From: Acrocarpospora phusangensis
GTDB lineage: Bacteria; Actinomycetota; Actinomycetes; Streptosporangiales; Streptosporangiaceae
Length of the DNA: 64,000 nt
NCBI RefSeq assembly: GCF_016862995.1
Contig: NZ_BOOA01000001.1
Location: 124,001 to 188,000, forward strand
Direction: 5' to 3'
Part shown: positions 40,382 to 64,000 of the stretch, in pieces
How positions within the stretch are numbered: position 1 is the stretch's first letter
Layout of the letters: every line of letters begins with the position of its first letter
The notes under the pieces: model-generated
The model's database searches: none
Seen by the model: only the letters and a program-made list of their open reading frames with translations
Told to the model about the DNA's origin: nothing
Position numbers and translations under genes: made by a program

Positions 40382-42304
40382 TCAGTGCCGGCGGGCGCGG
40401 CGCAGCCGGGCCACCGTCCCGGCCAGGGCGGGACCGAAGACGACCGCGACCAGCGCGAGGACCATCGTGAGCAGCGTCCAGGGCGTGCCGGCGGCCTCCG
40501 CCACCTTCTTGACCTCGACCGCGGCGCCGCCGGCCAGTTGCGGATTGATGCTGCTGTTGCCGCCGCCGGTGCCCGAGCCGGCCAGCGGGAGGACCTGCCC
40601 GTCGGTGGCGACGCCGGGCGTGGTCCCCTCGCCGGTCACCGCCGGCGTCTCCTGGCCGGTCGGCGTGCCGGTGCCCGGGGCGTCGCCCCCGCCGCCGTCC
40701 TCGGAGTCCGGCGTGAGGCCGCCCGTCCCGCCCGTGTCCCCCGTGCCGCCGGTGCCCGGCTTGCCGGAGCCGCCGGTCGGGCTGGAGCCGCCGGGCTTGG
40801 CGGATTCGCTGGGATTTCCGCCTGACCCGCCGCCCCCGGAACCACTTGCTCCCGGGGAAGGACTCGCACTGGGACTGGCCGAATTGTTCTGCGCATTGTT
40901 GTTGTTATTGTTATTGCTGTTGTTGTTGCTGTTGTTCTCGTTGTTCTGGTCGTTGTTATTGTTGTTCTGCTCGTTGTTCTGATTCTGGTTGTTGTTTCCG
41001 GGCGGATTCTCCTCGACCGCCTCCTCGCCCTCCTCGCCGCATTTCTGCCCGTTCGGCAGGGCGAGGCTCTTGTAGTACTGGCCCCACTGGTCACCGGCGG
41101 TGGGCAGCGCCGGATGGCCGGGCACCGACGCGAGCGCGCTCAGGCCCTGGTTGATGAGCTCGGTCGGGAGCTGCGAGTAGCCGATCTGGTCGACGTTCTT
41201 CTGCCCGTCGGTGATCGCGTGCAGGGTGAACTTGCTGATCACCTCGCCCTTGGCGGCGTCGTACCCGTCGGTCGGCACGATGATGTAGTTGTAGCTGGAG
41301 ATGGGGTACGCGTTGGCGTGCGGATGCGCGTACACGTCGGTCAGGTCGTAGGTGCCGTCGCTCTTGCGGCGGGCGGCGGTCAGGGCGATGGCCTGGCTGC
41401 AGGCGGTCGGCTCGGCGTAGTTGCCGGAGGCGTTCTTCAGCTTGACCACCGGCAGGCCGACCTGGATCGCGTAGGCGTACTCGGCGTACCCGATGGCGCC
41501 CTTGCCCGCCTGCCCCTGCTGCACGGTGATGGCGACCGTGTCGGAGCCGTTCTTGTACTCGACGCCCGAGCCGCGGTTCTCCGGCCACTCGTCGGTCGCG
41601 CCGCAGGTGTTGTTCTTGCAGTCCTCGGACGGGGAGGCGGGCGGCAGGCCGGGACAGCCCTCGCTCCGGGCGCAGCCGCCCTCCATGTACCCGCGCCACC
41701 GGTCCCCCGCCTGCTTGCTGAGGTACTCGGTGAACACCGAGGTCGTCCCGGAGCCGCCCTTGCGCACCACTGGGTAGATCGGGTGGTGGGGCAGCCGGGC
41801 GGCGATCTCCGGGTTCTCGGCCTTGATGTCGGCGTCGTCCCAGAACATCTCCGGCTCGCCGCGGTACTGGGTGTAGTACGCGCTGGTGAAGATCTTGACC
41901 AGCAGCGGCCCGGACAGCTTCAGCCCGGTGATGGCCTGCCCGGCGTTGTCCTTGATGCTGTACATGACGGCCGTGCCCCCGCCCACCAGCGGCATGTACG
42001 TGTACGGGAACTCCGGCACCGCCTCGGTCCCGAGCCCCTCCGGGAACCGGTACGACACGTCGCTGGACGCGAAGTCGGCGTTCTCCCGCTTCGCGAACCG
42101 GTCCCGCCCGGCGGTGGACCCCACCTGCTGGTAGTTGATCGACAGCCCCTGCCGCCGTACGTCCACGATCCACTGCTGGATCGCCAGGTAGGCGAAGGTG
42201 GACCCGGCCCCGTTCACGGTCGGCAGGTCCGCGCCGCTCGCGGGCGCGGGCCCGGCCCCCAGGAAGAGCGCGACCATCAGCAGCGACACCACGACGCGGC
42301 TCAT
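40382..42304 (-). CDS. pstS: PstS-type phosphate-binding protein with Asn-rich stalk and C-terminal membrane anchor
   Basis: 640 residues, nearly twice the usual PstS length. Signal peptide [20 protein letters not shown], then the binding domain: [52 protein letters not shown] and [20 protein letters not shown]. From about residue 437 comes a stalk of almost pure Asn/Gln, then Gly/Ser/Thr-rich sequence, then a membrane segment ([19 protein letters not shown]) with a basic tail. The protein is thus tethered by a long flexible arm instead of by a lipobox, and no LPxTG-type sorting signal is visible. The ATG overlaps the pstB stop by 4 bases. The operon context supports phosphate uptake. Confidence 0.85.
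40883..40997 (-). repeat. Trinucleotide-rich tract encoding the Asn-rich stalk
   Basis: The plus strand is dominated by TTG/TTC/TTA triplets in frame with AAC/AAT codons on the minus strand. It is much lower in GC than its surroundings and uses AAT freely, unlike the neighbouring genes. Such tracts change length by slippage. Confidence 0.75.
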
Positions 42305-43125
42305 CCGAACCTCCCGTTCACGTAGTCGGCGGTGCGCGGGTCCTCGGGCGAGCCGAAGATGTGCTCGGTGGCGCCCTGCTCGACGACCCGGCCCGGCTCG
42401 TCCTCGGCCGCCAGGAAGAAGGCGCAGTGCTGGGAGACCCGCTGGGCCTGCTGCATGTTGTGGGTGACGATCACGATCGTCACCTGGTCCTTGAGTTCAT
42501 GGATGGTCTCCTCGATCCGGCGGGTGGAGGTCGGGTCGAGCGCCGAACAGGGCTCGTCCATGAGCAGCACGTCCGGCCGGACCGCCAGCGACCTGGCGAT
42601 GCAGAGCCGCTGCTGCTGGCCGCCGGAGAGCCCGCCCGCCGGGGCGTTCAGGCGGTTGCGCACCTCGTTCCAGAGGCCGGCGCGGCGCAGGCTCTCCTCG
42701 ATGAGCTGCTCCCGGTTGGGGGCCTTGCGGCCGGTCAGCTTGAGCCCGGCCATGACGTTGTCGCCGATCGTCATGGCGGGGAACGGGTTGGGCTTCTGGA
42801 AGACCATGCCGATCCGCCGCCGCACCTCGGTGATGGGCAGCGCGGTGCCGTAGATGTCGTCGCCGTCCAGCAGCACGCTCCCGGCCAGCGTGGCGATCGG
42901 GACGAGCTCGTGCATGCGGTTGAGGATCCGCAGGAAGGTGGACTTGCCGCAGCCGGACGGGCCGATCAGCGCCGTCACGACCCCGGCGCGCATGTCGATG
43001 TCGACGCCTTCCAGCACCCGGCGGGAGCCGAACCAGGCCGACACCCCGACCCCGCGCAGCGTCCCCCCGGCCGGCTGGACGACAGCTGTGGCTTCCTGGC
43101 GGGCCTCGGTCTCCTGGGTGCTCAT
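42301..43125 (-). CDS. pstB: Phosphate ABC transporter ATP-binding protein
   Basis: 274 residues. Walker A is [20 protein letters not shown], the Q-loop region is [15 protein letters not shown] (a PstB hallmark), the signature is [18 protein letters not shown], and Walker B with the D-loop is [20 protein letters not shown], followed by the switch [12 protein letters not shown]. It energises import of phosphate through PstC and PstA. The ATG overlaps the pstA stop by 4 bases and its own stop overlaps pstS by 4 bases. A 20-residue N-terminal extension is short and unstructured. Confidence 0.95.
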
Positions 43126-44270
43126 TTCGCCGCCCCTCTCCGGCGGCGGCTCTTCCCGCCGGGGCCGGCGCCGCCCGCCAGCCGGGCCAGCACGAACAGC
43201 ACCAGCACGAGGATGAGCAGCAGCAGCGCGCCGCCCCAGGCACGTTCCACGAAGGTCTCCTTGGAGCTTCTGATCTGGTTGAACACGAAGAGCGGGATGT
43301 TGTCCTGGTAGTCGGAGAAGGGGTTGACGTTGAGGATGTTGGTCCCGCCCACCGTGAGCAGCACCGGCGCGGTCTCCCCGACCACCCGGGCCATGCCGAG
43401 GATCACCGCGGTCGCCAGCCCCGCCCGCGCGGTCGGCAGCACCACCAGCAGCACACTCCGCCAGTACGGCGAGCCGAGCGCCAGCGCCGCCTCGCGCAGG
43501 CTGCCGGGCACCACGCGGAGCACCTGCTCGGCCGCGATGGTCACCGTGGGCAGCATCAGGATGGTCAGGGCCAGGCTGCCCGCGAACCCGGAGAACCCCC
43601 ACCCCGTCCGGATGACCACGATCGAGTACACGAACAGCCCGGCCACGATGGAGGGCAGCGCGGTCATCGCGTCGGCCACCAGCCGGGTGGGGCGGGCCAG
43701 CGGGCCGGTGATCTCGCTCAGGTAGACGGCGGTCAGCACGCCGAGCGGCACCGCGATGAGGGTGGCGATGCCGAGTTGCTGCAGGGTTCCGACGAGCGAG
43801 TGGAGCAGCCCGCCGTCGCCGGCCTCGGAGAGCGGCCCGGTCAGCTCCATGGTCTCGGTCAGGAAGCCGAAGTCGATCACGCCCAGGCCGCGGATGGTGA
43901 CGTACCCGACCACCAGGAAGATCGGGGAGAGGGCCAGGGCCGCGCCGGTGGTGATCAGGATGGAGGCCAGCCGGTCCCGGGCGGCGACCGGGCCGTGGCC
44001 GTCCCGGACGACCAGCCAGTAGATGGGGAGCGTGAGCGCGTACCAGGCGACGGCGAACGCCACGCCCTGGATGCGGAACGGGAGGAACCTGTCGAAGATC
44101 AGCCAGGTCAGCAGCAGCGCGGAGGCGGCGGATCCGGCGAACTCGCCGACATCGGCCCAGCGCCAGGCCCGCGGCCTCCGCCGGGGCGCCCGCATCGCCA
44201 CTTCTGCCGATTTATCCGAAATATCAGGCTTTTCGTCGGGCTTGGGGGCGATCGCGCGGGTCGCGGCCAT
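43122..44270 (-). CDS. pstA: Phosphate ABC transporter permease PstA
   Basis: 382 residues with about eight membrane segments. Two extra N-terminal helices ([33 protein letters not shown]) precede the six-helix permease core, giving a longer form than the E. coli protein. Core features are [40 protein letters not shown] and the EAA loop [20 protein letters not shown]. The first 35 residues are cytoplasmic and charged. It begins 1 bp after the pstC stop. Confidence 0.93.
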
Positions 44271-44271
44271 G

Positions 44272-45276
44272 TCAGGCCGCCGACTTCGCGCGCTCGACCA
44301 CGGTCGCGGCCAGCAGGTTGATCACGATGGTCACCAGGAAGAGCGAGAGACCCGCCGCCATGAGCGCGCTCAGGCCCAGCTCCTGGGCGTCGAAGAACTC
44401 GACGGCGATACCGCTGGCCACGGTGATGCCCCCGGTCTCCAGGATCTGCGGCTTGATCTCGAAGCGGATGTTGAGGATCAGCGTGGCCGCGATGGTCTCG
44501 CCGAGCGCCCGGCCGAGCCCGAGCATCGAGCCGCCGACGATGCCGGTGCGCCCGAACGGCAGGATGACCGTGGTGATCATGCCCCATCGGGTGCCGCCGA
44601 GCGCCAGCGCGCCCTCGCACTCGTGCCGGGGAGCCTGCGAGAGCACCTCGCGAATGATCGAGGTGGTGATCGGGATGGCCATCAGCGCGATCACCAGGCC
44701 GGCGTTGAAGAGCGAGGAGCCGGTCGCGATGGCCCGCATGAAGGGGAGCGTGCCGCCCAGCTGGGCGACCAGCCAGCCCTCGATCGGCTGCAGCCACGGG
44801 ACCAGGAAGAACAGCCCCCAGAGCGCGAAGATCAGGCTGGGGATGGCCGCCATCAGGTCGACCAGCGAGGTGAGCGCGGCGCGCAGCGCCCTGGGGGCGT
44901 ACTCGTTGATGAAGACGGCCGTGGCGAGGGCCAGCGGCACGGTCGCCAGCATGGCCACGATCGCGGTCACGGCGGTGCCGTACATCATGGCGGCCACCCC
45001 GAACTCGGGCGGCACGGAGTCGGGGTCCCAGCGCTGGGTGGTCAGGAAGCCGAACCCGGCGGCCCGGAACGCGGGCAGCGCCTCCAGCAGCAGGAAGACG
45101 CCGATCAGCACGATGATCAGCAGGGTGATCCCGGCCCCGGTCGTCGCCAGCGCCCGGTAGAAGCGGTCGCTCCGGCTCATCCTGGCCTCGATCCGGCGCG
45201 GGCCGTCCGCTTCCGGGGGCTCCCCCAGCCCGAGGGCCGCGAGGCCGGTGGGTCCCTCGGAGTCGTTCGCTTCCAC
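44272..45276 (-). CDS. pstC: Phosphate ABC transporter permease PstC
   Basis: 334 residues, six membrane segments after a 40-residue cytoplasmic N-terminus. Features are TLLIIVLIGVFLLLEALPAF, LVDLMAAIPSLIFALWGLFF, the EAA loop ECEGALALGGTRWGMITTVI and LGLGRALGETIAATLIL, all typical of PstC. It is the first gene of the pstC-pstA-pstB-pstS operon. The 274 bp upstream are shared with the divergent PstS-like/sortase operon; only one fair PHO-like unit was found there. Confidence 0.93.
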   Translation of the reverse strand: MEANDSEGPTGLAALGLGEPPEADGPRRIEARMSRSDRFYRALATTGAGITLLIIVLIGVFLLLEALPAFRAAGFGFLTTQRWDPDSVPPEFGVAAMMYGTAVTAIVAMLATVPLALATAVFINEYAPRALRAALTSLVDLMAAIPSLIFALWGLFFLVPWLQPIEGWLVAQLGGTLPFMRAIATGSSLFNAGLVIALMAIPITTSIIREVLSQAPRHECEGALALGGTRWGMITTVILPFGRTGIVGGSMLGLGRALGETIAATLILNIRFEIKPQILETGGITVASGIAVEFFDAQELGLSALMAAGLSLFLVTIVINLLAATVVERAKSAA

Positions 45277-45550
45277 CGTCTTCCTTTCACTAAGCCTCTC
45301 GAAGGCATATGACAGTCCGAAGTGTCGCCATGGTGAGCTGTCCGCATCACCAATCCCGGGTTAACGAGAACGGGCGCGACAATTGCCAGTCGCGGCGAAT
45401 GACGAGGTCAGGTGAATTCCGCCGCGATTCCCGTGTCCGCGGCGCGACGCGCCAGTGAACACTCATCTGCGGGCGTCGATGCCATTGCCGGGGGCCTACC
45501 CGAACGCTTTTCTTTTGGGGGATTACTGCCATTCGCCAGTGGAGAGCACC

Positions 45551-48118
45551 GTGTTGCGAGCGTCACGCAGGACTATCGCCGTCGTGGGGGCGATCGCGAT
45601 CGCCGCGGCCGTCCTGACGCTTCCCCCCCGGGAACCGACCAGCGCCATGGCCGCCGCCGCGGCCGAACTGCCCACCGTGGAGGTCTGGACCGAGCCGGCC
45701 GGGGGCACCCGGGCCGACGGTCCCGGCGTCGTGGACCTCGACCCCGGCCAGACGGTGACGGTCCGGTGGCGCAACTTCGCCCCGAACACCGCGGTCTCCC
45801 TCACCCAGTGCGTCAACCCGTCCCGGATGTACTTCAGCATCACCGGCCAGCTCCCGGTCTGGGACGACCGCAAGGGGTGCGCCCACCAGACCCGCGTCCG
45901 CGGCATGACCGGGCCCGACGGCACCGGCTCGGCGGCCTTCCCGGTCCGGGTCGGCATCATCGACCCCAGCGTGGTCTCCGAGTGGGAGAACGGCGGCCGG
46001 GCCGCGAACCTCCCGTTCCCGTGCAACGGCCAGAACAAGACCAGGCCGCAGGAGCTGACCTGCACCATCGTGGTCAGCGAGTGCGAGTGGAGCCAGCCGC
46101 TCGACCTGGACCCCGCCACCGCCCCGCCGACCGCGCGCACCCGCGCCACCGCGCCCGGCGACCCGGCCGGGGTGGCGGTCGCCGCGATCAGCGGCCTGCT
46201 CCGCTTCAAGAACGACGCCGCCGGAGCGCCGATCACCACGCACATCCCGCCGCTGGAGCCACCGCCGGTGCCGGAACCGAACATCCCGCCCCTCCCCGAC
46301 CCGCCCACCACCCCCCGCCTCGGCGACCAGGTGAGTCTCTCCGGGAGCAGCAACATCGCGGCGGTCATGGAGGCGTGGACCGAGGGCGCGCTCCAACTCC
46401 CCCGGCACGTCGACGTCTCGGTCACCCGTTCCACGTCCGAACTGGGCGCGACCAGCCTCAAGGCCGGCTTCGACAGCGCGTTCGCGCGCGGCGCCGACTT
46501 CACCGTCACCAGCGTGCCGTTCGACCTGCTCGACACCCCGGACAGCGGCGCGCTGACCGGCAAGGTGGTGTACGCGCCGATCTCCCTCACCGCGCTCGCC
46601 ATCGCCAACAGCGCCGAGTACGCCGGGGCGATCGTGCGGGACGCCCGCCTGGACGCCGACACGGTGGCCCGCATGCTCAACGGCGACTCGGGCGAGTCCG
46701 CCACCCACGTGCCCGGGTGGGGATCCCTCGGCGGGTCCACCCGTCCGACCCTGCTCGCCGCCCAGAACCGCGGCTGCGAGCTCCCGCCCAAGAAGACCGT
46801 CAACCGGGGCGTACGGCTCGGCGCGTCGGGCCAGAGCCGGCTGCTCTCCCAGTGGATGGCCGCCAACCTCACCCCCGACCAGTACGGCAAGCTCTTCGAG
46901 ACCCCGCCCGGCAGCACCCGCCTGGTGCCGCTCTACCCGGGCTACAGCGGCTACATCTTCGGCTGGGAGGCCAGCGAGCGCATCGCCAGCCGGTACGGCA
47001 CGGTCAAGGACGACGACCCCAACGCGGCCCGGGTCCGCGGCGAGACCGGCGGGCTCGGCTACGTGGACGTCACCGAAGTGGGCGCGCTGGCCGAGCGGGG
47101 CTTCCCGCTGGGCGTGTCGCCGCTGCGCAACGCGGCCGGAAAGTACGTGCCGCCGGACGCGGCCTCGATCCTGGCCGGGTTCGGCCTGATGACGGAGAAC
47201 GCGGACGGCACGCGGACCCCGGCGTTCGGCGCCACCGGGGCCGCCGGCGCGTACCCGATGCCGATGATCCACTACCTGGCGGTCCCGGCGAACGGGAGCG
47301 ACGGCGCCAACCCGTTGCCCGAGGGCAAACGCCTGGCCGTCGCCGGGTTCCTCCGGTACGTCGTCGGCGACGCGGCCCAGGCGAAGGTGGCCGAACTGGG
47401 CGGGGCCGAACTGCCGGACGCCCTCCGGGAGCAGTCCCTGGCCATCGCCGAGGACCTCGAGTCGGCCACCGGCGTGAGCCCCTCTCCGTCGCCCACGCCG
47501 ACCTCCTCCAGCACGCCGACGCCGCCGGCCGACGACGATGACGACGACGACGGGGCCGATGGCGGCTCCCAGGTCGACGGCGGCGACAACGACGGCCGGA
47601 CCTTCACCGAGACCGGCGAGCGGCAGGCTCCCGTCGACGACGCCGACATCCGTGACGGCGAGCGGGTCACCGTGCGCGTCACCGTGACGCCGAGCCCGCC
47701 CGCGCGCCCTTCCTCCACGCCCAGCGAGCGGAACGACTCCCCCAGATCCGGTGGGGACAGATCTGGTGGCGGCGGAAGTGACGACAGTGGAGCGGACGAC
47801 GATCCGGTCGTGGAAACGCCCGGCGACGTCCCCGTCGACCCGTCTCCCACCGATCCCGGTACGGGCGGCGCCCTGCCCTCGGAGACCCCTTCCGACGCAC
47901 CCGTCAACCTCGTGCAGGACGAAGGCTCCGTACGCGCCGGGAAGATCCCGGAGGGTGCGGCCGTGGTGCCGTTGAGCGTGCTCCTGGTGCTGGGACTGCT
48001 CGGGGTCATGGTCGGCGGATCGTGGCGCGGCTACCAGTACTGGCAGGTGCTCCAGGCCCGCCGCCGGCCGGAACCGGCCCCGCAGCAGAATCCGGGCGGG
48101 ACAGGCACTCCGGCATGA
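45551..48118 (+). CDS. Large membrane-anchored protein with Ig-like and PstS-like binding domains
   Basis: 855 residues. Signal segment (TIAVVGAIAIAAAVLTLPP), an N-terminal Ig-like domain (DLDPGQTVTVRWRNFAPNTA, LPFPCNGQNKTRPQELTCTI) with cysteines placed for disulfides, a PstS/DING-like domain (VSLSGSSNIAAVMEAWTEGA, FTVTSVPFDLLDTPDSGALT, LVPLYPGYSGYIFGWEASER, PMIHYLAVPANGSDGANPLP), a 190-residue Pro/Ser/Asp-rich stalk including seven Asp in a row, and a C-terminal membrane helix (PLSVLLVLGLLGVMVGGSWR). The GTG at 45551 follows GGAGAG by 5 bases and starts a normal signal peptide. It is divergent from pstC and overlaps the sortase-fold gene by 4 bases (ATGA). The ligand is unknown; phosphate or a phosphorylated glycan are options. 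Confidence 0.75.
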   Translation: MLRASRRTIAVVGAIAIAAAVLTLPPREPTSAMAAAAAELPTVEVWTEPAGGTRADGPGVVDLDPGQTVTVRWRNFAPNTAVSLTQCVNPSRMYFSITGQLPVWDDRKGCAHQTRVRGMTGPDGTGSAAFPVRVGIIDPSVVSEWENGGRAANLPFPCNGQNKTRPQELTCTIVVSECEWSQPLDLDPATAPPTARTRATAPGDPAGVAVAAISGLLRFKNDAAGAPITTHIPPLEPPPVPEPNIPPLPDPPTTPRLGDQVSLSGSSNIAAVMEAWTEGALQLPRHVDVSVTRSTSELGATSLKAGFDSAFARGADFTVTSVPFDLLDTPDSGALTGKVVYAPISLTALAIANSAEYAGAIVRDARLDADTVARMLNGDSGESATHVPGWGSLGGSTRPTLLAAQNRGCELPPKKTVNRGVRLGASGQSRLLSQWMAANLTPDQYGKLFETPPGSTRLVPLYPGYSGYIFGWEASERIASRYGTVKDDDPNAARVRGETGGLGYVDVTEVGALAERGFPLGVSPLRNAAGKYVPPDAASILAGFGLMTENADGTRTPAFGATGAAGAYPMPMIHYLAVPANGSDGANPLPEGKRLAVAGFLRYVVGDAAQAKVAELGGAELPDALREQSLAIAEDLESATGVSPSPSPTPTSSSTPTPPADDDDDDDGADGGSQVDGGDNDGRTFTETGERQAPVDDADIRDGERVTVRVTVTPSPPARPSSTPSERNDSPRSGGDRSGGGGSDDSGADDDPVVETPGDVPVDPSPTDPGTGGALPSETPSDAPVNLVQDEGSVRAGKIPEGAAVVPLSVLLVLGLLGVMVGGSWRGYQYWQVLQARRRPEPAPQQNPGGTGTPA

Positions 48119-49500
48119 CCGCGAACGACCCTGCGCTGTCGGTCGCCGTCGAGACGGCGGCCCGCACGATCGAACGCCTGGAGGCCAGTGTCGCGCGCGC
48201 GGCGAGCGGCATGGCCCCGCACGAGCACGCCAACGCGCTGGTGATCGCCGGTTCGGCCTCGGTCCTGCTGGGCCAGCTGGAACTCGCCGCCCCCCGGGAC
48301 GACGAGTCGCTGCGCGAGCACACCACCGGCCTGCGCATCCGCTACGACAGCGCCCTGCTCCGCCTCGGCGGAACCCCGGCCACCGCGCCCTACCCGTATC
48401 CACAGCCATATCCGCAGCCGTATCCGCCGATGGGCGCGGCGTCCTGGATCCAGGTCGCGCCCGGCCAGTTCGTGATGGCGCCCGCGCAACCGGTCATACC
48501 GATACCGCAACCGACACCGCAGCCCGCGGGCCGGCCGGTGGGGACGCCGGTGATGCCCGCGGCGTGGCCGCCGCCGATGACGGCCCCGCCCGTCCGGAAG
48601 CGGCGAAGCGTCGCGGAAACCCTCGGCGGCCTCCCCGACGAGATCAAGCGCATGGGCCGGGCCGCGATCAGCGCGATCACCATCATGGGCGTCCTGCTGC
48701 TCGCCTTCTCCTGGTACGCGTCCTGGTTCGGCCACCTGATGTACGAACGCAACCAGCGCATCATGCTGGACGAACTCAACGAGGACTTCACCGCCGCCGC
48801 CACGATCGCCGCCGCCCCCCAGGCCACGGACAAGGACCTCACGGCGATCCCGCCCCGCGGGAAACCGATCGCCCTCCTGGAGATCCCGAAGCTGGGCCTG
48901 CGCGAAGTCGTCGTCCAGGGCACCGGCACCGCCGAGTTGCGGGCTGCCGTCGGCCACTACCGCCCGGCCCCGATGCCGGGGCAGTCGGGCAACGCCGTCC
49001 TGGCCGGGCACCGCGCCCTCTACGGCAGCCCGTTCGACCGGCTGGCCGAGATGGTCCCGGGGGACAAGGTCATCGCGACGACCCAGGAGGGCCGGTTCAC
49101 CTTCACCGTCGAACTGGTGGAGGAGGCCGGCACCGGCCACGACGACTTCCTCGGCCAGGAGACCTTCGTCAACCGGCTGACGCTGCTCACCACCGCGGAG
49201 AACGGCGGGCAGGGCGGCCGGCTGGCCGTGGTGTCCCGGCTGGACGGCCTGCCGGCCTCGCTCAAGACCGTGGATCCGTCGCAGCCCAAGGCGGACGAGC
49301 TCGGGCTGGGGCGGGACACCACCGCCTGGTGGCCCGCGCTCGGCTGGGGCGCCGCCCTGTTCGCGCTGCTGGCGGGAACGATCCAGCTCTACCGCCGGTG
49401 GCGGCGCACCTCCGCGTATCTGATCACCACGCCGCCGCTGCTGGCCGCCGGACTGCTCTGGTTCGAGGCGCTGGCCCGGCTGATCCCCTCGACGTACTGA
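48115..49500 (+). CDS. Sortase-fold membrane protein lacking the catalytic cysteine
   Basis: 461 residues. The N-terminal half is cytoplasmic (helical segment to residue 85, then PYPYPQPYPQPYPP and Pro-rich sequence), followed by a membrane segment near 195-215 (ISAITIMGVLLLAFSWYAS) and an outer sortase domain: IALLEIPKLGLREVVVQGT, GQSGNAVLAGHRALYGSPFD with His299, and GGRLAVVSRL with Arg369. The TLxTC motif reads TLLTT, so Thr360 replaces the catalytic Cys while His and Arg are kept at normal spacing. Two more membrane segments follow. Transpeptidation by the known mechanism is therefore not expected; it may bind sorting signals or glycans. It is co-translated with the PstS-like protein upstream. 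Confidence 0.82.
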   Translation: MTANDPALSVAVETAARTIERLEASVARAASGMAPHEHANALVIAGSASVLLGQLELAAPRDDESLREHTTGLRIRYDSALLRLGGTPATAPYPYPQPYPQPYPPMGAASWIQVAPGQFVMAPAQPVIPIPQPTPQPAGRPVGTPVMPAAWPPPMTAPPVRKRRSVAETLGGLPDEIKRMGRAAISAITIMGVLLLAFSWYASWFGHLMYERNQRIMLDELNEDFTAAATIAAAPQATDKDLTAIPPRGKPIALLEIPKLGLREVVVQGTGTAELRAAVGHYRPAPMPGQSGNAVLAGHRALYGSPFDRLAEMVPGDKVIATTQEGRFTFTVELVEEAGTGHDDFLGQETFVNRLTLLTTAENGGQGGRLAVVSRLDGLPASLKTVDPSQPKADELGLGRDTTAWWPALGWGAALFALLAGTIQLYRRWRRTSAYLITTPPLLAAGLLWFEALARLIPSTY

Positions 49501-49511
49501 GACGCCCTGAC

Positions 49512-51719
49512 ATGGCGAGGAACGGGCTGAAGTCGCTGGCGGGGTTCGCCGACCAGGCCGTGGCGAGCGCCACCAACGTCGCGCTGACCGTCGTGGTGGC
49601 CCGCGAGGTGGATCCGTGGACGCTGGGGGCGTTCGCGGTGGCGTACACGCTCTATCTGGTCGCGGTGGGGCTGTCCCGGGCGGTGGCCAGCGAGCCGCTG
49701 CTGGTCAGGTACAGCCACGTGCCGGGGGACGCGCACCGGGAGGGCGCGCGGCGGTCCACCGGGGTGGCGATCGTCATCGGCGTGGCGGGCGGCCTGGGCA
49801 TGGTGGCGGTGGCGCTGCCCGCCGGCGGCGCGATCGCGGACGCGGTGGTGCCGCTCGGGCTCTTCCTGCCCGCGCTGCTGCTGAAGGACGCCTGGCGGTT
49901 CGTCTTCCTGGCGGCGGGACGGCCGGGCCAGGCGATCGTCAACGACCTGGTGTGGGCGCTCGCGCAGGTGGCCTGCGTGGGCGGGGTGATGGCGGCGGAC
50001 CGGCCGCAGGTCGGGTGGTTCGTGGCCGCGTGGGGGGCGGCGGCGCTGGTGGCGTGCGTGGCGGGGGCCGTACAGGCCGGGCTGGCGCCGTCGCCGTGGC
50101 GGGCGGGCCGGTGGCTGCGGGAGCACCGGGACCTGTTGCCGAGTTACACGGTCGACTTCGCGGCGCGGGCGGGCGGGCGCAATCTGACCCTGCTGGCGGT
50201 CGGCTGGGTGGGCGGGCTGCCCGCGCTGGCCGCGATCCGGGCGGCCGAGGTGCTCTTCGGCGGGCTGAACGTGGTGCTCCAGGCCGGATACCTGGTCGCG
50301 ATCCCGCAGGCGGTCGGCGCGTTCCGGAGGTCGGCGGCGGCGCTGCGGGCGGCGGTGTTCGCCCAGTCGGGGCTGCTGGTCCTGCTCTCCCTCGGCTACT
50401 CGGCGGTGGTCCTGCTGATCCCGGACGCGTGGGGCCGGGCGCTGGTCGGGCAGACCTGGTCGATCGCCGAGGACGTGCTGCTCGCGCAGGCGCTGCTCTA
50501 CACCGGCATCGCCGCGATCACCGGCCCGGTGGTCGGCCTGCGGGCGCTCGGCGACGCCCGGCGCAGCGCCGTGGTGCGCCTGCTGCTGGTTCCGCTCTAC
50601 ATCGCTTCGAGCGTGGCGGGGGCCTCCCTGGCGGGGGCGGCGGGCGCCGTCCTGGGCCTGGGGCTCGCCCACCTCGCCGGGCTGATCCTGTGGATCGCCC
50701 AGTTCCGGACCCTGCTTCACATCCCACCCTCTCCTCAAGGAACCTCCATGGAACTCAACGCGTACGGCCGGCGGCACCGCGGGATCCTCGTGCCGCTCCT
50801 CCTGGTGCCGCTGGTCGCGGCGGGCGGCGGCCTGGGCTGGGCGGCGATCCAGCCGGCCACCTACCGGCACGTCACCGAACTGCAGATCCCGGCGCCCTCC
50901 GACACCGCCAGCGCGGCCACCGCCGAGCAGAGCGTGGCCACCTTCCGCAGCCTGATCAACTCGCCCTCGGTCGTGAACGCGGTGGCCCGCGACACCGGCG
51001 TGGACGTGGCCGTCATCCGGGCCGGTCTCACCACGGAACGGCCGTCGCAGGACAAGGAGCGCGGCAACGTGGTCCAGGTCGTGTTCACCGGCGACGACCG
51101 GGCCACCGCCCCCAAGGTGACCAGCGCGGCGGCCGTCACCGCGGCCAACGAGCTGCTCGGCCCCAACATCGAGCGCGCCCGCGGCAACGTGGACGGCGCC
51201 CAGGCCGCCGCCGACGAGCGGGCCGAGGCGGTCTCCGACGCGATGGCCACCGGCGGTCTGGTGCCCGACCGCTACCGGGTGCTGCTCGGCGAGATCACCC
51301 GTCTGAAGACCGAGCTGATCGCCCCGTCCGGCAACCGCAGGCGCGGCGTGATCGCCCGCGCGCTGCGCGAGCGGGAGGCCGAGCAGAAGGCGATCGCCAC
51401 GCAGGTGGTGCCGTTCATGATGTTGCAGAACCGGGCCGACCAGGCCAACCGCTCCCTCATCGACGCCTACGCCAAACTCCGCGAGGTGGAGGGCCGGCTG
51501 TCCCAGGCGCGCGCCTCGATCGTGCCGCTGACCACCGAGGCCGAGGCGATCCCGAAGGCCCCCGTCATGATCCGCGCCGGCGCGATGGGCGCGGGCGTCG
51601 GGGTGCTGCTGGCCATCGTCGCCCTCGGCCTGCGCGAGCTGCTGCGGACGGGCCGCCGGGACCGGGACGAGGAGGAGCTGCTCCCTCCGGCCCCCCAGCA
51701 GCTGCCCGAGCGGGTCTGA
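49512..51719 (+). CDS. Flippase fused in frame to a Wzz-like chain-length/copolymerase protein
   Basis: 735 residues in one uninterrupted frame. Residues 1-410 form a 12-helix MOP/Wzx-type polysaccharide flippase ([80 protein letters not shown]). Residues 413-735 are a Wzz-like protein with two membrane segments flanking a periplasmic-type helical domain ([60 protein letters not shown]) and no tyrosine-kinase domain. At the junction an AAGGA lies 6 bases before an internal ATG at 50749, so the Wzz part may also be made alone. Separate genes are the norm; this could be a natural fusion or a lost stop codon. Confidence 0.8.
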
Positions 51720-53247: not shown

Positions 53248-54435
53248 TTAGTTGAAGTTCACGAAGTTGCACTTGTTGCCGGTCGGGTTGACCTTGACGA
53301 AGCCCGCGTCCGTGATGACCTTGTCGACCGCGAGACCCCAGTTGCGGTCGACGTTGGGGTTGGCGATGCCGGGGTTGGTGTCGCCGGGCTTCTTGCTGTG
53401 CACGGCGTTCGGCTTGCAGATCCAGCCGTTCTCGCCGATGTAGCCCTCGATCCAGCCCGGGCCGCCGCGGCGGTACACGTTGTACAGCGTCCGGTTGTAC
53501 TGGTAGGTGCCGTTCTGAATGGTGGTCGGCGTGGCGGTGATGCCGCCGACGCTGATCAGGTCGGTGGCGGCGTCGGTGCAGTTGGCGGCGCCGGTGGTGT
53601 ACTTGCCGAACGAGAGCGGCCAGAGCGAGGCGCCCTTGTCGGCGGCGGGCAGGTTGTTGATCTCGGTGCAGTCGTTCTCGAACAGGACCAGGCCGCCGGT
53701 GGCCGCGACGCAGGCGTTCGCGTCGCCGCCGAGGAAGGAGGTGATGGTGGCGTAGGTGCCGGAGCTGGTCTGGATCCCGTGGACCTTGATCGGGGTGCCG
53801 GGGGTGCCGCCGAAGTCGCCCCAGTCCTCGGCGCAGCCGTCACCCGAGACGTCCCGGAAGATCTCCTGGAGCTGCGCGTGGGTCAGGTTGGTGACCGGGC
53901 CGGAGGCGCCGCCGAGCCACTTGGCGATGCCGATGGCGTCCTTGGCCCAGCCGACGTAGCGGAGCTGGTCGCCGGCGTTGCACTGGGACGGGATGCTGCT
54001 GACCGAGGACGAGGAACGCGCGTAGCTCACCGGGGAGACGCCGGCCAGGCTGTCGTTCTGCTGGCAGAGCTGGCGCAACCCGGCCGAGGACCCCTGCGGG
54101 AACTGGCTCACGGCCACCTCGTGGTCGTAGTTCTCGGTCTGCACGGTGGTGGGCAGGTCGGCCAGGCAGGTGTACTGCGGCACCGCCGGAGGCACCACCA
54201 GCTCACAACCGGGCGAGCCGTTGAACGCGGCGTCCATGGCCTGCATGGCGAAGAAGGTGGTGTCGGAACCCGAGCCCCGGATGATGCTGTTCATCTTGCC
54301 GTCGGCGAAGTCGGGAAGCGCCCAGGCGGGGGTGGCGAGCGCCGTCACGGTGACCGCGGCCACGGCCACGGCGCCCATGCGCCGGACCAGGCGGCGCAGC
54401 CGCCCCCGGGTGACTGACTGGATTTCGGTGGACAT
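53248..54435 (-). CDS. Secreted PstS-like substrate-binding protein
   Basis: 395 residues. Signal peptide RMGAVAVAAVTVTALATPAWA. The binding domain shows IIRGSGSDTTFFAMQAMDAA, where the PstS GSGSxx phosphate loop would be, then ISVARSSSS-type sequence (SYARSSSSVSS), YVGWAKDAIGIAKWLG, HGIQTSSGTYATITSFLGGD, a second T-S-S-G-T loop typical of phosphate-binding proteins, and several cysteines placed for disulfides. It lacks a lipobox and a C-terminal anchor, so it is probably released or wall-associated. It is monocistronic. It differs from the two other PstS-like proteins of the window and is not next to a permease. Confidence 0.8.
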   Translation of the reverse strand: MSTEIQSVTRGRLRRLVRRMGAVAVAAVTVTALATPAWALPDFADGKMNSIIRGSGSDTTFFAMQAMDAAFNGSPGCELVVPPAVPQYTCLADLPTTVQTENYDHEVAVSQFPQGSSAGLRQLCQQNDSLAGVSPVSYARSSSSVSSIPSQCNAGDQLRYVGWAKDAIGIAKWLGGASGPVTNLTHAQLQEIFRDVSGDGCAEDWGDFGGTPGTPIKVHGIQTSSGTYATITSFLGGDANACVAATGGLVLFENDCTEINNLPAADKGASLWPLSFGKYTTGAANCTDAATDLISVGGITATPTTIQNGTYQYNRTLYNVYRRGGPGWIEGYIGENGWICKPNAVHSKKPGDTNPGIANPNVDRNWGLAVDKVITDAGFVKVNPTGNKCNFVNFN

Positions 54436-63381: not shown

Positions 63382-63540
63382 CGGTTCCACGGTCACCTCG
63401 TCGAGGCCGAAGAGCGAGTCGGCCAGCGGGAAGAGCACGTACCAGAGGAAGCCTCCGGCGGCCGCGAGCAGCAGGATCGCGCACACGGTCCTGGTGAGCC
63501 GGCCGCCGGGCAGCTTGTCCCAGATCCAGGGATAGATCAT
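63364..63540 (-). CDS. Small membrane protein coupled to the class E sortase
   Basis: 58 residues: [20 protein letters not shown], one membrane segment ([20 protein letters not shown]) and a short acidic outer tail. Its ATG overlaps the sortase stop by 4 bases. Small single-pass proteins in this position accompany class E sortases in other actinobacteria; a helper or accessory role is inferred. Confidence 0.65.
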
Positions 63541-64000
63541 TTCTTCAGCTCCAGCTCGGGGGGCCGTCCGTCCGTCTTCGCCTGGGAGCGGGCGAGTTCC
63601 GCGAAGACCGCCAGGCGCTGCCAGTTCTGGAGCTTCGGGTTGCACGTGGTCAGGGTGAGCATCGCCCGTTCCGGGGGCACTCCCGGGCGGTTGGGCGTGG
63701 GGGCGACGACCTCGACCGAACTCGGCAGCACCTCCCGGTGCCCGGTGACGCGGTACACGAACCAGGCGTTCCGGGTCTCCGCGACGATCGTGTCCCCGGT
63801 GCGGAGCCGGTCGAGGTCCCAGAAGACCGAGGGAATGCGGTGCCCGGCCACGGCCATGTTGCCGATCTCCCCCGGGCGGGCCGTCTTCGGATAGTGGCCG
63901 GGGCCCTTGCGCAGGTCGGCCTGGGTCACGCCTTCGACGACGGCCCATCTCCTGTCCAGTTTCGGGATGTGCAGGCGGGCGAGCGGCAGGCCGGGCGCCG
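63537..64000 (-). CDS. Class E sortase, N-terminus beyond window edge
   Basis: Partial gene; about 154 codons are visible and the start lies off the right edge. [20 protein letters not shown] is the entry to the sortase barrel, [20 protein letters not shown] has the catalytic His, and [12 protein letters not shown] holds the TLxTC cysteine, with Arg in [11 protein letters not shown] nine residues after it. This is a complete catalytic triad, unlike the sortase-fold protein at 48-49.5 kb. Class E enzymes attach LAxTG-type proteins to the wall; no clear LAxTG protein is in this window. Confidence 0.87.

Follow-up and report, generated by a model that had tools for sequence, protein, structure and literature searches.

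What does a sortase do when it no longer has the residue on which the known sortase mechanism depends? The question is raised by a gene in a 64,000-nucleotide stretch of Acrocarpospora phusangensis DNA (contig NZ_BOOA01000001.1, positions 124,001 to 188,000 of the forward strand), which in its full length is referred to as the window. The gene encodes a class E-like sortase with threonine in place of the catalytic cysteine, and an original prediction, made from the DNA letters alone, offered two roles for the product, either as a binding scaffold or as an enzyme using threonine as its nucleophile. That prediction had missed a link to a complete pst-type ATP-binding cassette (ABC) transporter, which is encoded divergently next door and is also found around many actinobacterial homologues. 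The protein, termed here the dead sortase, would appear to be a membrane subunit that has no catalytic role and instead docks tail-anchored binding proteins at a second Pst-type transporter, a reading to which a probability of about 60% is given. The gene and its diagnostic codons are:

48115-49500, plus strand: Cys-less class E-like sortase, 461 amino acids by translation
48958-48960, plus strand: Tyr282 codon, matched through its GHY context to the recognition Tyr of class E (Tyr229 in SrtE1 of S. coelicolor, PMC5148588)
49009-49011, plus strand: His299 codon (CAC), catalytic His position
49192-49194, plus strand: Thr360 codon (ACC), catalytic Cys position, which is the end of strand beta7
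49219-49221, plus strand: Arg369 codon (CGG), catalytic Arg position

Translation bears out the predicted exchange of Thr for Cys, with His299 and Arg369 in place. The 461-residue protein is formed of an N-terminal part, a transmembrane (TM) segment at about 180-205, a sortase domain at 255-372 and two hydrophobic segments at about 400-461. By sequence the sortase domain is present, since Pfam Sortase (PF04203) matches residues 255-372 with an E-value of 7e-22, far above its cut-off, and also matches all 18 members of profile A1, which was built from 18 sequences and used to find further members of the family. The match of the family profile to class E structures extends through the strand that carries the Cys (E-value 2e-28). 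The class E model NF033747 is the best NCBIfam match of the window protein, but at 103.7 bits against a cut-off of 160; seven other Cys-less members score 60-121 bits and three live relatives 159, 177 and 189, so that one of these also just misses the cut-off. The two C-terminal hydrophobic segments are read here as a putative membrane hairpin. Both have a mean hydropathy of at least 1.0 in all 57 aligned Cys-less sequences, and of at least 1.6 in 36 of them, the values in the window protein being 1.46 and 1.47. The long Pro-rich N-terminus that had been described is also found, with Pro at 25 of the 80 residues between 86 and 165, and it is probably cytoplasmic because it is placed before the first TM segment. 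For SrtE1, the passages of PMC5148588 that deal with the active site name Cys320, His251 and Arg329 as the catalytic residues and indicate that Tyr229 and Arg329 may form hydrogen bonds with the peptide in the site.

The window's branch of the family, termed group A, consists of ten members including the window, from five Acrocarpospora genomes and from five species of four other genera, the latter found when 200 Streptosporangiaceae genomes were searched, this being the family of the window. Thr stands at the Cys position in all five Acrocarpospora genomes searched, and Tyr282, His299, Thr360 and Arg369 are each found in 10/10 members of group A, none of which has Cys; the alignment of close homologues proposed in the original prediction thus gives a clade that lacks Cys and shares His and Arg. 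The Thr codon is ACC in eight members and ACG in two. As 66 of the 122 core columns are also invariant, the invariance of one residue is unremarkable alone, and what is informative in the alignment is that Tyr, His and Arg are kept with a nucleophile position that is uniformly Thr. The reading frame is open in 10/10 members and, relative to the window, the ratio of non-synonymous to synonymous substitution rates (dN/dS) comes to 0.12-0.45 across 216-217 codons (our own Nei-Gojobori script), which confirms the earlier view of a gene maintained and not decayed. A sequencing error at 49192-49194 is excluded because Thr recurs in nine relatives across five genera, and the same relatives exclude a recent single substitution at the Cys site. 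Judged from these comparisons, Thr360 is neither a sequencing error nor a product of decay.

The loss of the nucleophile extends well beyond group A. The search of the family that yielded group A also gave weaker matches that reach to the extreme C-terminus and lack Cys, His and Arg. With A1, 15 of 90 genomes of the family gave a match, all Cys-less (all 17 places examined), as did 24 of 118 genomes of the class, where one, G521, retains Cys (all 29 listed places examined). Of 296 genomes of the phylum, 161 gave a match; context was examined in 17 of these, with 20 places fetched in 16 genomes, and among those examined eight genomes besides the source genome have members. The Cys-less family spans 16 actinobacterial families by group codes. 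Altogether 59 Cys-less members were examined, namely 57 aligned sequences (ten of group A and 47 of what is termed group B) and two, L242 and L243, whose classing as Cys-less is based on the motif and not on an alignment. At the Cys site the 47 group B sequences have Ala (33), Ser (10), Val (2) or Thr (2), and at the His site Arg (42) or Lys (5), a basic residue in every case, which may indicate an anionic partner or ligand in the old active site. The catalytic Arg is kept in only one of them, L111, together with His to Arg and Cys to Ser changes. Tyr at the beta3/beta4 loop position is found in 0/47 group B sequences; among 14 live class E sortases this position is Tyr in eight and Phe in six.

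Thirteen relatives (L115, L118-L128, L177) keep Cys, His and Arg in an HR...C...R arrangement, and 11 of them match into the C-terminal part, L121 and L177 matching without it. L122, whose gene is split by an in-frame stop into two pieces, was omitted from the tree yet counted as Cys-bearing. A search of viral contigs with the L068 protein gave no relative, and one of plasmid records with the L109 protein gave two weak partial matches. In a tree of 77 sequences, made with the catalytic columns removed and with class F as an outgroup on a long branch, the 14 live class E sortases form one side of a branch (support 100/99) and 46 group B sequences form another branch (97/94). Support for the group A branch is weak (79/48), as it is for the placement of L111 with the live class E sortases (82/24). 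A single clade of all 57 Cys-less sequences is not rejected by the approximately unbiased test (p 0.49). With the outgroup on so long a branch the root falls among the Cys-less sequences, and Cys may have been lost once or more often. Group A, with its recognition residues kept, looks like the less altered form.

The feature that nearly all the Cys-less members share is found next to them, in genes that in the window are arranged as follows:

40382-42304, minus strand: PstS that shares its ligand stretches with solved phosphate-binding proteins and ends in a TM anchor, preceded by a linker rich in Asn, Gly and Pro
42301-43125, minus strand: PstB homologue, 274 amino acids, named from sequence
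43122-44270, minus strand: PstA homologue, named from sequence; weaker TIGR02138 match of 116 bits, below the cut-off
44272-45276, minus strand: PstC homologue (TIGR02138, 261 bits)
45455-48118, plus strand: large PstS-like protein with a C-terminal TM segment, weakly similar to phosphate-binding proteins
47930-47953, plus strand: VRAGKIPE, the juxtamembrane motif in the large PstS-like protein, at the place expected for a sorting signal

The pst-type gene set is complete between 40382 and 45276, divergent from the adjoining dead sortase gene, with the PstC, PstA and PstB genes together at 42301-45276. Its PstS aligns with solved PstS proteins over the stretches GAGSTF, GS, SD and GGSGT, which we take to hold the phosphate-ligand residues; the matches of the large PstS-like protein to phosphate-binding proteins are weak. 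The start of the dead sortase gene overlaps the stop of the PstS-like gene by four bases (ATGA, 48115-48118), and because of this overlap the predicted co-translation of the two is plausible.

Linkage was taken to mean homologues of PstA, PstB or PstC nearby, at 38% identity or more in the main scan. Such genes are found near 52 of the 57 aligned Cys-less members and, with PstB beside the two later ones, 54/59 in all, against 0/13 of the Cys-bearing relatives, a contrast for which Fisher's test gives 1.2e-10, a value made too optimistic by the relatedness of the sequences. All five Cys-less members without pstA, pstB or pstC in view (L062, L160, L162, L164 and L175) are cut upstream by a contig end; four of them show a PstS-like gene and L160 shows nothing. 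Counted by eye, 19 of the 57 loci have in full what is the commonest gene order, pstC-pstA-pstS-(large PstS-like)-dead sortase-pstB, seven have pstB-pstC-pstA-pstS-dead sortase, and a divergent pst arrangement next door is seen in 11 (nine of group A, including the window, and L076 and L116); the remaining loci are partial or cut. Genome G026 has two dead sortases, one of group A (L061) and one of group B (L077), both with pst genes of their own alongside, and a third PstC elsewhere. As a separate observation, eight of 12 live class E-like sortases (L115, L118-L123 and L125) adjoin another ABC ATPase of 26-33% identity to PstB, which at L119 belongs to a cytochrome c maturation locus with CcmB.

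The linked transporter is an additional one. Counting PstC when above the TIGR02138 cut-off, at least two were found in 24/24 tested genomes with a dead sortase; one of these stands at the dead sortase locus in 23, and in G071 the contig ends first. A single PstC was found in 22/24 genomes of the family without an A1 match. The two exceptions are G005, where a second pstC-pstA of the linked type (54-55% identity) runs into a contig end, and G013, where the second Pst is remote (29% to the linked PstC) and is followed by an apparent response regulator, identified by eye. Genomes with the dead sortase thus have a Pst-type transporter more than nearly all of those without it, and the two go together.

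The binding proteins of this transporter are also distinctive. At 33 chosen linked loci a C-terminal TM-like segment is found in 31/33 open reading frames (ORFs) for the phosphate-type PstS, one of the two exceptions being truncated where the stretch ends, and in 29/33 for the large PstS-like protein, the four exceptions lying just below the threshold. Fifteen canonical loci were fetched, of which 12 gave a PstS; here a C-terminal TM segment is found in 0/12 and a lipobox-like string in 11. The TM segment and basic tail of the linked proteins have the form of a sorting signal. An LPxTG/LAxTG-like string precedes the TM segment in only three of the 60 tail-anchored proteins, 32-47 residues off. 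In group A the sequence [VI]R[AG]G[KTR]IP is found directly before the TM segment of the large PstS-like protein in all nine readable relatives (L062 is unreadable), within a linker that is otherwise poorly conserved. At L209-L211, in group B, the dead sortase gene is immediately preceded by one for a further PstS-like protein, which has no C-terminal TM segment.

The groove residues of group A and the transporter link, taken together, are best explained by a docking subunit. In such a system a sortase-derived pseudoenzyme would serve a second, specialised Pst-type ABC transporter as a membrane subunit, the main substrate-binding proteins of which would be held by C-terminal TM tails and not by lipid. 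The extracytoplasmic domain, set between the N-terminal TM segment and the C-terminal hairpin, would dock or order these tail-anchored proteins near PstC/PstA. In group A, because Tyr, His and Arg are kept and Cys is gone, the groove has no nucleophile and would bind the tail without cutting it, the best candidate ligand being [VI]R[AG]G[KTR]IP in the PstS-like protein with which the dead sortase would be co-translated. The sequence-based case consists of the family-wide loss of Cys, the conservation within the branch, the pst linkage, the co-occurrence, the tail anchors and the motif; from it we infer a physical complex, binding of the tails and phosphate as the cargo.

Several observations weigh against this reading. 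The A1 profile was made from Cys-less sequences and so favours them, and a Cys-bearing pst-linked sortase in the remaining 144 matched genomes of the phylum would have been missed. The sequences come from related species, so that the counts are not independent. At L160, L162 and L175 no pstB is found within the 15-18 kb read downstream, where it is the upstream side alone that is cut. A C-terminal TM segment is missing from 24 ORFs that belong to two further kinds of linked PstS-like protein, and group B tails show no fixed motif comparable to that of group A. As the tail motif is fixed in group A alone, the family as a whole may need more than one mode of binding. With the large PstS-like protein only weakly similar to phosphate-binding proteins, the cargo of the second transporter may be something other than phosphate. 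Pho-box-like repeats number 24 in the window against 18.9 expected, which is not above chance, with none between the divergent genes. Two AlphaFold runs on five-row alignments gave mean pLDDT (predicted local distance difference test) scores of 37.0 and 36.8 and were not used.

Thr360 might instead be a working nucleophile, the window's branch being a threonine transpeptidase that would attach or cleave tails through an ester intermediate, while His299 and Arg369 would act as they do in other sortases. This would account for the invariance of His, Arg and the class E Tyr alongside Thr in 10/10 members, for the use of two Thr codons, so that the amino acid itself is what is kept, and for the conserved motif in the tail of the partner. 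At a sortase site, however, a Thr hydroxyl is much less nucleophilic than the thiolate of Cys. Moreover, in the sister lineages linked to pst other residues stand at the catalytic sites, so that a common role needs no chemistry, and no Thr sortase turned up in the open-licence literature, in which no search was aimed at one by name. As the wider family has Ala, Ser, Thr or Val at the site, loses His and nearly always loses Arg, the nucleophile half of the original proposal is not supported and is held to be very improbable, whereas its binding scaffold would fit the family picture best. That the gene is decaying after a recent loss of function has a negligible probability; the nucleophile is indeed lost, but the open frames and dN/dS values of group A, and a family that occupies one conserved gene setting in 16 actinobacterial families, already contradict it.

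The remaining alternatives look to the surroundings of the gene. The dead sortase could serve a live class E sortase as an adaptor, holding substrate for it, or be a decoy that competes with it, and all five Acrocarpospora genomes do have a live TLTTC class E sortase about 14 kb further downstream in the same locus, while G071 (L062) has a homologue about 3.6 kb away. With L062 excepted, however, no second sortase is seen in the stretch read at the other pst-linked loci, where the constant feature is the pst linkage, and this role is unlikely. It could also be an accessory to surface-glycan genes (a Wzz-like protein, a sulfotransferase and glycosyltransferases) with the pst neighbours incidental, given that the membrane/Wzz gene and the sulfotransferase adjoin it in nine of ten group A loci. 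The tenth, L062, has other genes there and lacks both although its downstream side is present, and the 47 other Cys-less loci have no match to either and yet have pst genes, which makes the glycan role distinctly improbable. An extension of the docking subunit reading is more tentative, and would be given somewhat less than an even chance, namely that sortase and substrate were turned together, across the actinobacteria, into a non-covalent transporter module as subunit and partner of a new Pst-type importer. In that module, with equal reserve, the binding proteins would keep a sorting-signal-like tail without a cleavage site, made up of the TM segment and a basic end and preceded in group A by the fixed motif, and the sortase would keep its fold without a nucleophile.

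Compared with known systems, the window protein resembles the class E sortases (Streptomyces SrtE1, PDB 5CUW; 5GO5/5GO6) in its sortase domain, by profile, and in the Tyr, His and Arg positions kept in group A, but it lacks Cys, falls below the NCBIfam cut-off and is encoded with a Pst-type transporter. The live class E-like sortases, the nearest live relatives in the tree, share the sortase domain and, in 11/13, the C-terminal part; unlike the dead family, they keep HR...C...R and are beside pst genes in 0/13. The linked system shares with the PstSCAB phosphate transporter its PstC, PstA and PstB homologues and a PstS with ligand stretches. It differs in that its main binding proteins are anchored by a C-terminal TM segment, in the addition of a large PstS-like protein and a sortase-fold protein, and in its coexistence with a canonical-looking Pst. 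No description of a sortase pseudoenzyme family or of a sortase-Pst link was found in the open-licence literature, from which work in subscription journals may be missing; judged by titles and the beginnings of abstracts, none of the open-licence papers that mention sortase with pstB and pstC is about such a link. The term 'degenerate sortase' in PMC8615915 refers, in the passage concerned, to a degenerate cleavage motif and not to a dead enzyme. The sortase fold thus gains a concrete candidate role outside cell-wall anchoring, and the findings point to a second actinobacterial Pst-type importer with tail-anchored binding proteins. They also carry a warning for annotation, in that the Sortase Pfam domain is present where the residue needed by the known mechanism is absent.

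Next to the dead sortase, on its downstream side, the window has this gene:

49512-51719, plus strand: membrane protein, 735 amino acids, the flippase-Wzz fusion of the original prediction, with a weak Wzz match in its second half

This ORF begins 11 bases past the stop of the dead sortase gene. The Wzz half of its earlier description stands weakly (E-value 0.0056, below the cut-off), whereas a Pfam scan of the 'flippase' half found no family, and the gene is absent from L062. The membrane and Wzz-like parts form one ORF in Acrocarpospora and L060 and two separate matches in L059, L061 and L063, the called ORFs overlapping at L061. A third PstS-like protein (53248-54435 in the window) is encoded near the dead sortase in 10/10 group A loci and has no C-terminal TM segment in 6/6 of those read. 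At the edge of the window the ORF 63537-63998, which runs off it, encodes a live class E sortase with AGHR and TLTTC, about 14 kb from the dead one, and a match to it is found at the same spacing in all five Acrocarpospora genomes. The source genome (9.1 Mb) has nine sortase-domain genes, consisting of the dead one, two that are class E-like and six of another class, the last of which have Asn at the aligned Arg column.

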